IMG/VR virus record: IMGVR_UViG_3300012206_000002
Location: 1 to 44,341 of that record
Source of the DNA: a virus
Strand: one strand, 5' to 3'
Length of the DNA stretch: 44,341 nucleotides
Below are positions 2,767 to 22,530 of this stretch, piece after piece (the first letter of the stretch is position 1; every line of letters starts with the position of its first letter). Below the pieces are notes generated by a model, which was given only the letters and a program-made list of their open reading frames with translations, was not told the origin of the DNA and did no database searches. The translations under genes were made by a program, and so were the position numbers.

Positions 2767-2791
2767 AGCCCCCGGCCATTGGCCAGGGGCT
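2767..2791. terminator. Bidirectional rho-independent terminator
   Basis: An inverted repeat with arms AGCCCC and GGCC on the left and GGCC and GGGGCT on the right around an ATT loop. It lies between the convergent ends of the + strand operon (stop 2750) and the - strand operon (stop 2801). On the minus strand it is followed by a T-rich tract (CTTTCTTTG), giving a good terminator in that direction; the plus-strand tail is less T-rich. Confidence 0.85.
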
Positions 2792-3415: not shown

Positions 3416-4099
3416 TCAGGAAGTAGGATACACAAAACCGGAAGGTAGGATAACTCCTTGAGGCTTCAAGCGAGGGAGGTCGGCGGAGCTGAGGTTGGCG
3501 GAGCTGAGGTTGGCGGAGCTGAGGTTGGCGGAGCGGAGGTTGGCGGAGCGGAGGTCGGCGAAGCTGAGGTCGGCGAAGCTGAGGTTGGCGGAGCTGAGGT
3601 TGGCGGAGCGGAGGTCGGCGAAGCTGAGGTTGGCGGAGCGGAGGTCGGCGAAGCTGAGGTCGGCGGAGCTGAGGTCGGCGAAGCTGAGGTCGGCGGAGCT
3701 GAGGTTGGCCCTCTCCCCGAAGGCACTGACTAGTCGGATACCGTCAACCAAGTCAATGACCTTGGCGGCCTTCACGCGGAGCTTGCCGTAGTCGGACGCA
3801 CCGAGCAAATCGATATTCCGGTACGCCACAAGAAGCAGTGTGCTCGCAGGCACACCTCCGGAGGCCATTCCTTCCCAAGTGGTCGCTACGCAAATTCCGT
3901 CTCCCTGCTGGGAGGGGCAAGATCCATTATGATCCAAGAACGGACCTTGGGCGCGAGCAACCCTGCCCGGGAACGGCCACACGAAATCGTGCTTCGTACG
4001 GAAGTCCGCGCGGACCGTCTTGATGGCCCAGTGATCGTAACCCTTGGGCAGCTCCCGACCTTCGGTGAGCTTGTCCAAGAGGTTGATGTATTCAGCCAT
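3416..4099 (-). CDS. Pentapeptide-repeat protein
   Basis: A 227-residue protein with an N-terminal globular part (about 1-130) and a run of about 16 pentapeptide repeats of the A(D/N)LSx type at about 131-213, e.g. SFADL, RSANL and SSADL, then a short non-repeat tail. Such repeats fold as a right-handed quadrilateral beta-helix. Relatives such as Qnr and MfpA mimic DNA and bind DNA gyrase; others have unknown roles. The repeat block here is almost pure at the DNA level (15- and 30-base units), suggesting recent expansion. The N-terminal domain carries a Trp-rich stretch and two Cys (HNGSCPSQQGDGICV) and resembles uncharacterised phage domains fused to pentapeptides. It overlaps the upstream gene by 8 bases. 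Confidence 0.88.
   Translation of the reverse strand: MAEYINLLDKLTEGRELPKGYDHWAIKTVRADFRTKHDFVWPFPGRVARAQGPFLDHNGSCPSQQGDGICVATTWEGMASGGVPASTLLLVAYRNIDLLGASDYGKLRVKAAKVIDLVDGIRLVSAFGERANLSSADLSFADLSSADLSFADLRSANLSFADLRSANLSSANLSFADLSFADLRSANLRSANLSSANLSSANLSSADLPRLKPQGVILPSGFVYPTS
3478..3712. repeat. Tandem 15-base repeats encoding the pentapeptides
   Basis: The + strand reads as alternating 15-base units, variants of GGCGGAGCTGAGGTT and GGCGAAGCTGAGGTC. They are the reverse complement of the pentapeptide codons. Most differences between units are one or two bases, so the array is young or kept uniform by recombination. Repeat number could vary between isolates. Confidence 0.85.
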
Positions 4100-4375: not shown

Positions 4376-4651
4376 TCAGTCCTCATCCTCTTCGTCGGAA
4401 CCTTCGTACAGCTCCCAGTCGTCGCCCTTGATGTCCGACTCCACTTCGGCCCAGTCCACCAGGCCCAGCAGGTCCACGAACATGTCACGGGCCATGCTGT
4501 CGGCGGGCATGGTGTCTACGAAGTAGTCGTAGAACGTGTCTTCGGCCGTTCCACCGTGGCGGAACGAGTCGCGGAACATCTCGTAAATGCCCTGGTCATT
4601 GGTCAGCCACAGGCTGATCTTCCACGTGGCGCTACCGTACTCACTGGCCAT
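4376..4651 (-). CDS. Hypothetical acidic protein downstream of a ribozyme
   Basis: A 91-residue acidic protein (C-terminus WELYEGSDEEDED) with aromatic residues throughout (ATWKISLWLTND, DTFYDYFVD). No family name is certain; similar short acidic ORFs are frequent in actinophage early regions. The ribosome binding site AGGGAG lies between the hammerhead ribozyme (4663-4714) and the ATG. After ribozyme cleavage, the mRNA for this gene would start with the ribozyme's stem I hairpin. Confidence 0.75.
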   Translation of the reverse strand: MASEYGSATWKISLWLTNDQGIYEMFRDSFRHGGTAEDTFYDYFVDTMPADSMARDMFVDLLGLVDWAEVESDIKGDDWELYEGSDEEDED

Positions 4652-4662
4652 GCTTACTCCCT

Positions 4663-4714
4663 GGTCTCATCAGGCGTGGAATGACCACGCGACCGGCCGT
4701 AGCCGGTTTCGACC
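4663..4714 (-). ncRNA. Type II hammerhead ribozyme (HHR2)
   Basis: Minus-strand order, 5' to 3': GGTC (stem II), GAAA core, stem III CCGGC with loop TACG and GCCGG, the cleavage-site bases TC (4692-4691), stem I GCGTGG with loop TCATT and CCACGC, the core CTGATGA, and GACC closing stem II. Every invariant core base of the hammerhead is present, including the A15.1-U16.1 pair and C17, and all three stems pair perfectly. Stem II is the open stem, so this is the type II permutation. Cleavage is predicted between 4691 and 4690. The element starts at the base after the TAA of the upstream gene and ends just before the next ribosome binding site. Confidence 0.9.
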
Positions 4715-4936
4715 TTATCCCGCGTTGTAACTGCCGAGAATGATCTCATCCTCTCCGGTGGGCTCGATCTTGGTCACCTCGACATTGCTTCCGTCTGTAC
4801 GCCACCCGGAATACCGAGAGCCGTAGTTAGCCAGGACGTGTACGAGCGCGTCCTTACTGCTCTTGGCACGTACGACAAACGAATCGTACTCATCGTATCC
4901 GATTCGGTCCGTGCGCTCCACCAAATACAGAGCCAT
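4715..4936 (-). CDS. Hypothetical protein upstream of a ribozyme
   Basis: A 73-residue protein starting MALYLVERTDRIGYDEYDSF with an alpha/beta pattern (strand, helix AKSSKDALVHVLANYG, strand). The pattern recalls small phage proteins found as tandem paralogues, such as the 49- and 54-residue genes at 5381-5696, which also begin with an aromatic-rich strand followed by a helix. No function is recognised. The TAA stop is immediately followed by the first base of hammerhead HHR2. Confidence 0.75.
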   Translation of the reverse strand: MALYLVERTDRIGYDEYDSFVVRAKSSKDALVHVLANYGSRYSGWRTDGSNVEVTKIEPTGEDEIILGSYNAG

Positions 4937-4938
4937 GA

Positions 4939-5313
4939 TCAGTTACCTTCCTCGGTCCGGACTTCCTCGGCGCTGGCCACGTCCCACACGGCCAGTTCAC
5001 CACGAGCACTCGCGAGAGCCAAGGCGGTGTACAGGTCCGCCACGTTCCGCTCGATGGACACGTAGACCGTGTCCGCCTTGTTGCCCATCCGGACGGTTGC
5101 GTAATAGTCCTCATTGCTGCTGAGGAACGACCAGTGGTGACCCAAGAACAGGTCCGTACTCTTGTACGGCATGGGGTGTTCCGGTGCGAGCACTAGGTTA
5201 CCCACCTCTCCGCCCACCATGTACCCATCCGTGGGGGCATCCCCACGGTGGTTGATGCTGAAACCGGTCTCGGCGTGCTCCATGAGCACGTCAGTGATGT
5301 TGTGCGGACGCAT
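4939..5313 (-). CDS. Hypothetical protein downstream of a ribozyme
   Basis: A 124-residue protein (MRPHNITDVLMEHAETGF) with mixed alpha/beta character and no recognised family. The ATG is preceded by GAAGGAG at good spacing. That site lies directly after the 3' end of hammerhead HHR1, so self-cleavage would put this gene at the 5' end of a processed mRNA with a 5'-hydroxyl. Its stop lies 2 bases from the next start. Confidence 0.75.
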   Translation of the reverse strand: MRPHNITDVLMEHAETGFSINHRGDAPTDGYMVGGEVGNLVLAPEHPMPYKSTDLFLGHHWSFLSSNEDYYATVRMGNKADTVYVSIERNVADLYTALALASARGELAVWDVASAEEVRTEEGN

Positions 5314-5327
5314 AAGGCGTCTCCTTC

Positions 5328-5381
5328 GGACTCGTCAGCGCGACCCTCAGTCGCGGACCAGGCAAGAGCCTGGTTTCGTCC
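5328..5381 (-). ncRNA. Type II hammerhead ribozyme (HHR1)
   Basis: Minus-strand order: GGAC (stem II, 5381-5378), GAAA core, stem III CCAGGC with loop TCTT and GCCTGG, cleavage-site TC (5357-5356), stem I CGCGAC with loop TGAGG and GTCGCG, the core CTGACGA, and GTCC (stem II). All conserved nucleotides are there and the stems of 4, 6 and 6 bp pair without mismatch. The open stem is stem II. Predicted cleavage is between 5356 and 5355. The first G is the last base of the upstream TAG stop. Layout matches HHR2, but stem and loop sequences differ, with covarying pairs in all three stems. Confidence 0.92.
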
Positions 5382-5545
5382 TAGTCTTTCTCTACCCAAG
5401 CTGTAGTCACGACATCACCGAAATCATCCAAAAGCTGGTCTGTGATGTGTGCGGCGAGTGTGGCACTGGGTACGCCACTCACGAAGATGTACACCTGCGG
5501 CTCTCGGGAAGAGCCATCGCCTTTGGTGTAGTAGATAGTGTACAC
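5381..5545 (-). CDS. Small protein, strand-helix type
   Basis: A 54-residue protein from GTG 5545, with AGAGGGA just upstream. It begins MYTIYYTKGDGS and continues with a second strand (PQVYIFVSGV) and a helix (SATLAAHITDQLLDDFG). The longer frame with an ATG at 5584 would run inside the previous gene and is less likely. Its TAG stop overlaps the 5' end of HHR1. The function is unknown. Confidence 0.7.
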   Translation of the reverse strand: MYTIYYTKGDGSSREPQVYIFVSGVPSATLAAHITDQLLDDFGDVVTTAWVEKD

Positions 5546-5546
5546 G

Positions 5547-5696
5547 TCAGTCCCTCTCTGCCCAGGCCAGGAAGACCTGGCCATCCTCGTTGAGATCGTC
5601 TGCGATACCTTCCGCCACCTGACGGTGAGAGGTGCGTGCGACGACTTCGGCGTCTAGATCAGCCTCAGCGTCGAACACCACGTAGACACTGTACAT
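5547..5696 (-). CDS. Small protein, strand-helix type
   Basis: A 49-residue protein (MYSVYVVFDAEADLDAEVVA) with an N-terminal hydrophobic strand and a helix, resembling its downstream neighbour in length and layout, so the two may be old duplicates. The start follows AGAAAGGATCATC, a good ribosome binding site. One base separates its stop from the next start. The function is unknown. Confidence 0.7.
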   Translation of the reverse strand: MYSVYVVFDAEADLDAEVVARTSHRQVAEGIADDLNEDGQVFLAWAERD

Positions 5697-21166: not shown

Positions 21167-22530
21167 TGGCATGGTCTATCTTCTCTGACGGTGGTGGCGA
21201 TGGTGCCGCTCTTACGTGGGCTAAGCAGTTCTTGCAGTCGCTTGGTGTGCCTGAATCCGCCACGAACATTGAGTTCGTGTACCAGTGGGAGAAGTCCGAA
21301 GGTGGTGGAGGTAAGTACAATCCACTGAACCAAGGTCCAGTCCCCGGCAACAGCTCGCTGACCTCTACAGGTCAGCAGTATGGAGGAGGCGCCGCCGACT
21401 TCGTCTCCTGGCAGGCCGGTATCCAGGGCGCGGTGGACTACCTCCACATGTCCAACTACACGAAGGTGTACGCAGCCCTCAAGGCTGGTGATGGCAACGC
21501 CGCCAAGCAGGCTCTGTGGGCCTCTCCGTGGGCCGCCTCACACTATGGGTATGGATCCTCTTGGTCGGGCGCCTCTGCCCCCTCTGGGGGCGACGCACTA
21601 CTGGGTGTGTCTCTGGCGGCCACGCAAGGGCAGTTGACCCCGTACGACCCCACCCAGAACGTTACGGCCACCATCAGCCCTCAGGAGCTGGCACAGCAGT
21701 ACGGTTACGCCTACTCCATGCTGAACGCCATCCCTGAACTGAAGACTCTCTTCAACCAGGCTGTGGCTGGACAGTGGGATGCCAGCAGGTTCCAAGCGTC
21801 CCTGCTCAACACCAAGTGGTACCAGCAGCACAGTGCAGCCCAGCGGGCGTGGATCGCTGAAGGCTATACCGATCCTTCGACCCAGAGAGCCCAGTGGACA
21901 GCCCAGCAGGCTGCCGTGCAGGCAGCAGCAGCCAAGATGGGTGCTAGCCTCTCACAGGGCACCATAGGGGTTCTGGCCAGCGAGTACCTGATGAACGGCT
22001 GGAACACGGATCAACTCAACAAGGCCATGGCGAAATACATTCAGTTCGACAAGAATGGTGCCATGGGTGGCCAGGCTGGTGATGAGGAGATGACCCTCCG
22101 GTCGTTGGCCAACAACAATGGTGTGAACATCTCGAACAACTGGCTGTTGACAATGGCTCGGCATATCGCCGACTCCTCCACCACGTTGGAGGATGCCTCC
22201 GGGTATGTCCGCCAGCAGGCAGAGAAGCTGTTCCCGAACTACGCCAAGCAGATCTCTGCTGGACAGAACATGTCCGATCTGGCCGCGCCTTACGCGGCTG
22301 ACTACCAGAAGATCCTTGAAGTGGGGCCGGGCCAGACCAACCTCTTCGACCCGAACATGGTGAAGGCCTTGCAATACAAGGACCCGACAGGGCAGAACAC
22401 CACGATGCCGATCTGGCAGTTCGACCAGACTTTGCGTAACGATCCCCGGTGGATGAAGACGCAGAATGCACAGGACACCACGATGGGTGTTGGCAGGCAG
22501 ATTCTACAGGATTTCGGGTTTTCCTTTTAG
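21166..22530 (+). CDS. Virion lysozyme-like protein with duplicated core domain
   Basis: A 454-residue protein. Residues about 1-140 resemble phage-associated lysozyme or transglycosylase domains: WEKSEGGGGKYNPLNQGPV supplies a Glu followed by the Gly-rich NPLN turn, then a long helix region (WQAGIQGAVDYLHMSNYTKV). It could open the cell wall during DNA entry. Residues about 165-454 are the domain shared with the upstream 302-residue gene. A linker rich in Gly/Ser separates the two. The catalytic assignment of the Glu in WEKSEGG is inferred from motif shape. Confidence 0.8.
   Translation: MAWSIFSDGGGDGAALTWAKQFLQSLGVPESATNIEFVYQWEKSEGGGGKYNPLNQGPVPGNSSLTSTGQQYGGGAADFVSWQAGIQGAVDYLHMSNYTKVYAALKAGDGNAAKQALWASPWAASHYGYGSSWSGASAPSGGDALLGVSLAATQGQLTPYDPTQNVTATISPQELAQQYGYAYSMLNAIPELKTLFNQAVAGQWDASRFQASLLNTKWYQQHSAAQRAWIAEGYTDPSTQRAQWTAQQAAVQAAAAKMGASLSQGTIGVLASEYLMNGWNTDQLNKAMAKYIQFDKNGAMGGQAGDEEMTLRSLANNNGVNISNNWLLTMARHIADSSTTLEDASGYVRQQAEKLFPNYAKQISAGQNMSDLAAPYAADYQKILEVGPGQTNLFDPNMVKALQYKDPTGQNTTMPIWQFDQTLRNDPRWMKTQNAQDTTMGVGRQILQDFGFSF

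Follow-up and report, generated by a model that had tools for sequence, protein, structure and literature searches.

A compact type II hammerhead ribozyme, predicted to self-cleave, between two early-operon genes of a phage

The window, i.e., the whole stretch of DNA analysed here, is 44,341 nt in length and corresponds to IMG/VR virus record IMGVR_UViG_3300012206_000002. Its terminase is about 48% identical to those of Streptomyces phages and it also carries portal, primase and sigma-like genes, a gene content indicating that the host of this phage is probably Streptomyces or a relative. Between approximately 7 and 2.8 kb lies a block of small genes on the minus strand, in which two hammerhead sequences, HHR1 and HHR2, frame a pair of genes. 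The features of this region, following the minus strand, are:

5381-5584, minus strand: ORF67, which lies upstream of HHR1 and whose TAG stop codon shares the first G of HHR1
5328-5381, minus strand: HHR1, a second compact type II hammerhead with the core CUGACGA (from the descriptor scan, the covariance model and the part map)
4939-5313, minus strand: ORF124, first gene of the ORF124 and ORF73 block framed by HHR1 and HHR2
4715-4936, minus strand: ORF73, phrog_5444 (E=2.2e-12), function unknown, directly upstream of HHR2
4715-4717, minus strand: TAA stop codon of ORF73, abutting HHR2, its last A being the A that precedes stem II
4714-4663, minus strand: HHR2, a complete type II hammerhead ribozyme of 52 bases
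4376-4651, minus strand: ORF91, DUF7249, directly downstream of HHR2, with a Shine-Dalgarno-like AGGGAG just before its ATG
2767-2791, minus strand: terminator-like hairpin with 11 pairs and a T-rich tail at the end of the gene block (consensus match only)

The ATG of ORF91 (4651) is 11 nt downstream of HHR2, so the placement of the ribozyme directly after a TAA and ahead of a ribosome binding site, as given in a preliminary description of this DNA, is confirmed. The same description had the coordinates of HHR2 right and left its strand, which is minus, unstated. The gene block also includes a pentapeptide-repeat protein gene (3416-4099, minus strand; Pfam E=3.8e-20), whose repeats form a DNA tandem array near 3490-3720.

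Read along the minus strand, HHR2 consists of GGUC, GAAA, CCGGC-UACG-GCCGG, U and C before the predicted cleavage site, and GCGUGG-UCAUU-CCACGC, CUGAUGA and GACC after it. The part map is as follows:

4714-4711 and 4666-4663, minus strand: stem II, GGUC paired with GACC
4710-4707, minus strand: GAAA
4706-4702 and 4697-4693, minus strand: stem III, CCGGC paired with GCCGG, with a UACG loop
4692, minus strand: U16.1
4691, minus strand: C17
4690-4685 and 4679-4674, minus strand: stem I, GCGUGG paired with CCACGC, with the loop UCAUU
4673-4667, minus strand: CUGAUGA core

The core is complete, with CUGANGA, GAAA and a UH at the cleavage site, and with both the G10.1-C11.1 and A15.1-U16.1 pairs present. 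Loops close stems I and III and stem II is open, which is the type II layout. The predicted cut falls between 4691 (C17) and 4690, the same position as proposed from the sequence beforehand. The minimum-energy fold of the 52-mer is exactly the hammerhead (z -3.2), and the same holds for a 69-nt stretch (z -2.3). When 141 nt including the start of the next gene are folded, the minimum-energy structure is a different one, so the downstream coding sequence may compete with HHR2 unless the RNA folds co-transcriptionally.

Scanning both strands with descriptors of each of the three hammerhead types gave only HHR2 and HHR1 in the window, in agreement with the earlier proposal of more than one ribozyme in the operon. 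Cleavage of HHR1 is predicted between 5356 and 5355. HHR1 shares with HHR2 an A 5′ of a 4-bp stem II, and it has the loop I sequence UGAGG, a TAG overlapping it by 1 nt (where HHR2 has UCAUU and an abutting TAA) and an ATG 14 nt downstream. The preliminary description had given its core as CTGATGA; the actual core is CUGACGA, a harmless slip since core position 7 is variable. Two other candidates were rejected: a simple CTGANGA..GAAA search of the window gave one match, at 21988, in type I/III order and below chance expectation, and a permissive Rfam search of 5.5 kb gave a RAGATH-1 match over part of HHR1 (23.4 bits, cut-off 56.3), judged to be a partial overlap through the shared core. At gathering thresholds, the only Rfam match in the whole window is a tRNA, with no hammerhead.

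Homologues were sought in viral contigs and cellular genomes with a pattern that fixes GAAACC, the GGTC before the cut and CTGANGAGNCC, and leaves the pairing free. Among the matches listed, 107 of 120 viral loci (one of them, L002, a protein-derived locus) held 170 paired type II hammerheads, and 6 of 117 cellular loci held 10, with three ribozymes of one actinobacterial genome counted twice via overlapping loci; these figures are fractions of the matches listed rather than densities. We built a covariance model on 49 of the viral (phage) hammerheads and on none from the window; it gave HHR2 65.6 bits (E=1.1e-17) and HHR1 57.5 bits, and the third-best match in the window reached only 11 bits. 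Across the 49, both partners have changed in 13 of 16 pairs, and covariation scores 0.719, compared with 0.135 for shuffles and at most 0.106 for slid controls. The proportion of cells that are paired (99.9%) is partly built in, since the 49 were chosen for correct pairing, but the diversity of pair types is not. Covariation had been noted earlier between the two copies in the window, and compensatory changes are indeed present there (6/6 stem I pairs and 1/4 stem II pairs), but two copies are thin evidence and the 49 outside homologues provide the real test. The type II architecture, the invariant core and the independent stems are confirmed.

We group the homologues, with HHR1 and HHR2, as a compact class with an A 5′ of a 4-bp stem II, a U-N-A-N-G loop I and a start at or close to a stop codon. 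GAAA and CUGANGA are invariant, an invariance partly imposed by the fixed letters of the pattern, and the cleavage-site base is C17 in 167 of 170, with TA in three (among the matches listed). Two features not imposed by the search are the base 5′ of stem II, an A in all 157 viral ribozymes with a 4-bp stem II, and loop I, of type UNANN and mostly U-N-A-N-G (U in 138, A in 115 and G in 119 of 139), both among the matches listed. The HHR2 loop ends in U rather than G, as it does in 11 of the 139 viral homologues. A loop-loop U/A contact is known in hammerheads (legend to figure S5, PMC3088659); the U of loop I and the invariant A are reminiscent of it, and may form such a contact here.

Both the published consensus and the Rfam model of type II hammerheads combine a short stem II with a pseudoknot between loop I and the 3′ tail, whereas HHR2 has a 4-bp stem II and a 5-nt loop I, and no pseudoknot was found, the longest pairing being 3 bp within 12 nt. 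Against RF02276 (Hammerhead_II), HHR2 scores 22.4 bits (E=0.0072 in a 101-base search), below the gathering cut-off of 37, and six viral loci, each rich in compact ribozymes, likewise gave no Rfam match at gathering. In the compact class as a whole, loop I gains nothing in pairing from having its own tail instead of a swapped one (mean longest run, 2.30 versus 2.29). More distant tail pairings, UGAGG/CCUUA for HHR1 and UCAUU/AGUGA for HHR2, lie 10-20 nt away and were rejected as no commoner than with swapped tails.

Cultured Streptomyces phages of the Arquatrovirinae served as a positive control. Tefunt, Omar, phiScoe1, Marav, Daudau and Salutena (records MF766048, MG593802, OQ672741, OQ995441, MF766045 and MT708548; loci L288-L291) carry 7-12 type II hammerheads each as covariance-model matches, and no ribozyme is annotated in the four Arquatrovirinae feature tables displayed. 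All 30 of 30 control hammerheads can form a loop I/tail pseudoknot of at least 4 bp, with pairing exceeding that of swapped tails (5.13 versus 4.65, 0/300), and 15 hammerheads in three of the four fetched loci pass the RF02276 cut-off. These arrays are like the window in being type II, with many members between small genes on one strand, but they differ in that a pseudoknot is possible and in belonging to a different sequence class.

Type II hammerheads of phages and prophages (PMC3088659; RF02276) resemble HHR2 in their permuted architecture, open stem II and identical core, and there too clustered copies frame single genes or short blocks. Tandem phage and prophage examples cut themselves in vitro, and one set also did so in E. 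coli; 4 of 18 consensus-fitting candidates in that 2011 study failed to cleave (PMC3088659). The HHphage of haloviruses HF1 and HF2 is, like HHR2, a phage hammerhead before a start codon (13 nt) in an early transcript, and a halovirus transcript 5′ end has been mapped within 3 nt of the hammerhead cleavage site (PMC3088659). Unlike HHR2, HHphage has a variant core and, from the mapped 5′ end, support in vivo.

Comparison with related phages, as proposed in the preliminary description, showed that kindred phages found by their terminases carry seven (G009), two (G005) or one (L248) of these ribozymes at gene boundaries of the early region, mostly at stop codons. The single copy of L248 sits right after its ORF124 homologue, and the boundaries occupied differ among relatives within the corresponding region. 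Ribozymes were absent from L240, L242, L243, L244 and L246 (several of the relatives' loci are fragments), and from six isolates of the Beephvirinae, whose terminases are the nearest. In the closest relative, whose TerL is 96% identical, ORF124 and ORF91 both have homologues but neither ribozyme is present, showing that the ribozymes are dispensable; they appear and disappear at gene boundaries, whereas the genes persist. No related viral contigs were retrieved with the ORF124 and ORF73 proteins as queries, and searching phages with the DNA of this region yielded no match.

Other structured RNAs occur between genes in this phage group. An intercistronic three-way junction with a 7-8 bp outer stem and two hairpins is present in the window (5773-5694, minus strand), with two copies in L240 (minus strand), one of them between the ORF124 and ORF91 homologues where the window has ORF73 and HHR2, and related forms in L242 and L243; it had no Rfam match in L002, and no match to its exact pattern was found outside this phage group. 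Lookalikes of a tRNA acceptor stem plus T-arm (GGUCGAGUCC), with the other arms absent, lie in L279 (G005) at 3597-3682 and 2841-2937 and in L248 at 1433-1287 (minus strand), and a weaker tRNA-like element in the window at 6170-6086 (minus strand). ARAGORN called no tRNA at these elements, which are possibly RNase P or end-protection signals. A recurrent hairpin with GGAGUUU ... CUUGCUCUCC directly follows stop codons in the window (3418-3351, minus strand) and in L279 (4665-4728 and 5020-5085). Another has a conserved internal loop (GCUGA ... UGAACC) and stems that change but stay paired; its two L248 copies had no Rfam match. Copies of the latter are:

L240 1559-1491, minus strand: internal-loop hairpin
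L242 1129-1061, minus strand: internal-loop hairpin
L248 2907-2835 and 2486-2414, minus strand: internal-loop hairpins
L279 2262-2323: internal-loop hairpin

HHR2 is very probably a cis-acting, self-cleaving type II hammerhead that divides the mRNA of a phage early operon at the boundary of two genes. This reading builds on its sequence, structure, covariation and position, on its multiplicity, and on its recurrence across phages. The 52 nt would fold into the three-way core as RNA polymerase passes, and the RNA would be cut after C17. Stems I and III are closed hairpins, so nothing but the 4-bp stem II would join the products, which should come apart. Upstream, the ORF124-ORF73 piece would keep its stop codon and gain a 3′ hairpin with a 2′,3′-cyclic phosphate, and the downstream piece (ORF91 onward) would keep its own ribosome binding site and gain a 5′-OH hairpin leader, leaving both neighbouring reading frames intact. 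HHR1 and HHR2 together would cut the operon into units, each translated and degraded on its own. Cleavage in the cell, release of the products, their independent fates and any improvement in the stability or translation of the mRNA are steps that we infer. RiboJ is also a hammerhead, and is similar in that it leaves a defined leader ahead of a ribosome binding site, as HHR2 would, but it is engineered and stands after a promoter, not between genes. As a self-cleaving leader and insulator it raises transcript (about twofold) and protein levels (PMC6206723), making a stabilising effect of HHR2 cleavage plausible by analogy. The processing system that the preliminary description had suggested from the two ribozymes is likewise something we infer; among the published hypotheses on phage type II hammerheads, processing of mRNA is the leading one, and it was proposed for prophages in 2011 (PMC3088659).

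The most serious alternative, in our judgement rather unlikely, is that HHR2 is catalytic but regulated by translation: a ribosome terminating on ORF73 would cover its 5′ half and block folding, so that cleavage would be confined to times of low translation of the upstream gene. The stop codon touches or overlaps the ribozyme far above chance, 95 of 140 ribozymes with a long upstream ORF starting -6 to +1 nt from its stop codon, and in 26 of the 27 that start at +1 the stop codon is TAG, its G shared with stem II (both among the matches listed). The competing long-range fold described above also fits such control. However, a compact genome would equally pack a ribozyme tightly between stop codon and ribosome binding site (the median distance from the ribozyme to the first plausible start codon downstream is 16 nt, an approximate figure since some ATGs inside the CUGAUGA core were counted), and several homologues lie 10-70 nt away from the stop codon.

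It is improbable that HHR2 is an inactive relic or a structured spacer, protecting mRNA ends or blocking translational coupling without cleavage. That non-hammerhead hairpins and junctions are found at similar gene boundaries in relatives suggests that structure alone may matter, but a spacer has no need of the unpaired core letters that are invariant here (an invariance partly imposed by the pattern), or of the A before stem II (157/157 among the matches listed) and the UNANG loop, which the pattern did not impose. Still less probable is a selfish or circularising element, in which HHR1 and HHR2 would release an RNA with a 5′-OH and a 2′,3′-cyclic phosphate to be ligated into a circle. One two-gene block is framed by two ribozymes and their presence varies among close relatives, as this would predict, but copies in one genome differ in nearly all stem letters and so did not arise by recent copying of one mobile unit, ribozymes often occur singly, and Perreault et al. 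sought circular or spliced products and found none (PMC3088659). Chance resemblance, conceivable for a short motif in GC-rich DNA, is already refuted, as the preliminary description had held, by the absence of type II matches in a descriptor scan of 300 random windows of equal size and dinucleotide make-up and by the 65.6 bits of HHR2 compared with 11 for the best match in the window other than HHR1.

Clustered, gene-framing type II hammerheads have been known in phages since 2011, and HHR2 adds a member. No description of the compact, pseudoknot-free, stop-codon-abutting form was found in the literature searched, and the form is not claimed as a new variant. As it escapes the Rfam cut-off, its abundance is likely underestimated. 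A broader and more tentative proposal is that compact, pseudoknot-free type II hammerheads with their 5′ edge built into the upstream stop codon could be widespread, largely unannotated operon dividers, and that in this phage group they could be one of several interchangeable intercistronic RNA modules that may cut or protect mRNA at nearly every gene junction. If so, hammerheads, three-way junctions, tRNA-like minihelices and internal-loop hairpins would serve one end. Relatives with one to seven copies or none, together with cultured Streptomyces phages with 7-12, provide a natural comparison that includes tractable isolates, in which it could be asked if phages divide their own mRNAs into pieces of one gene each.
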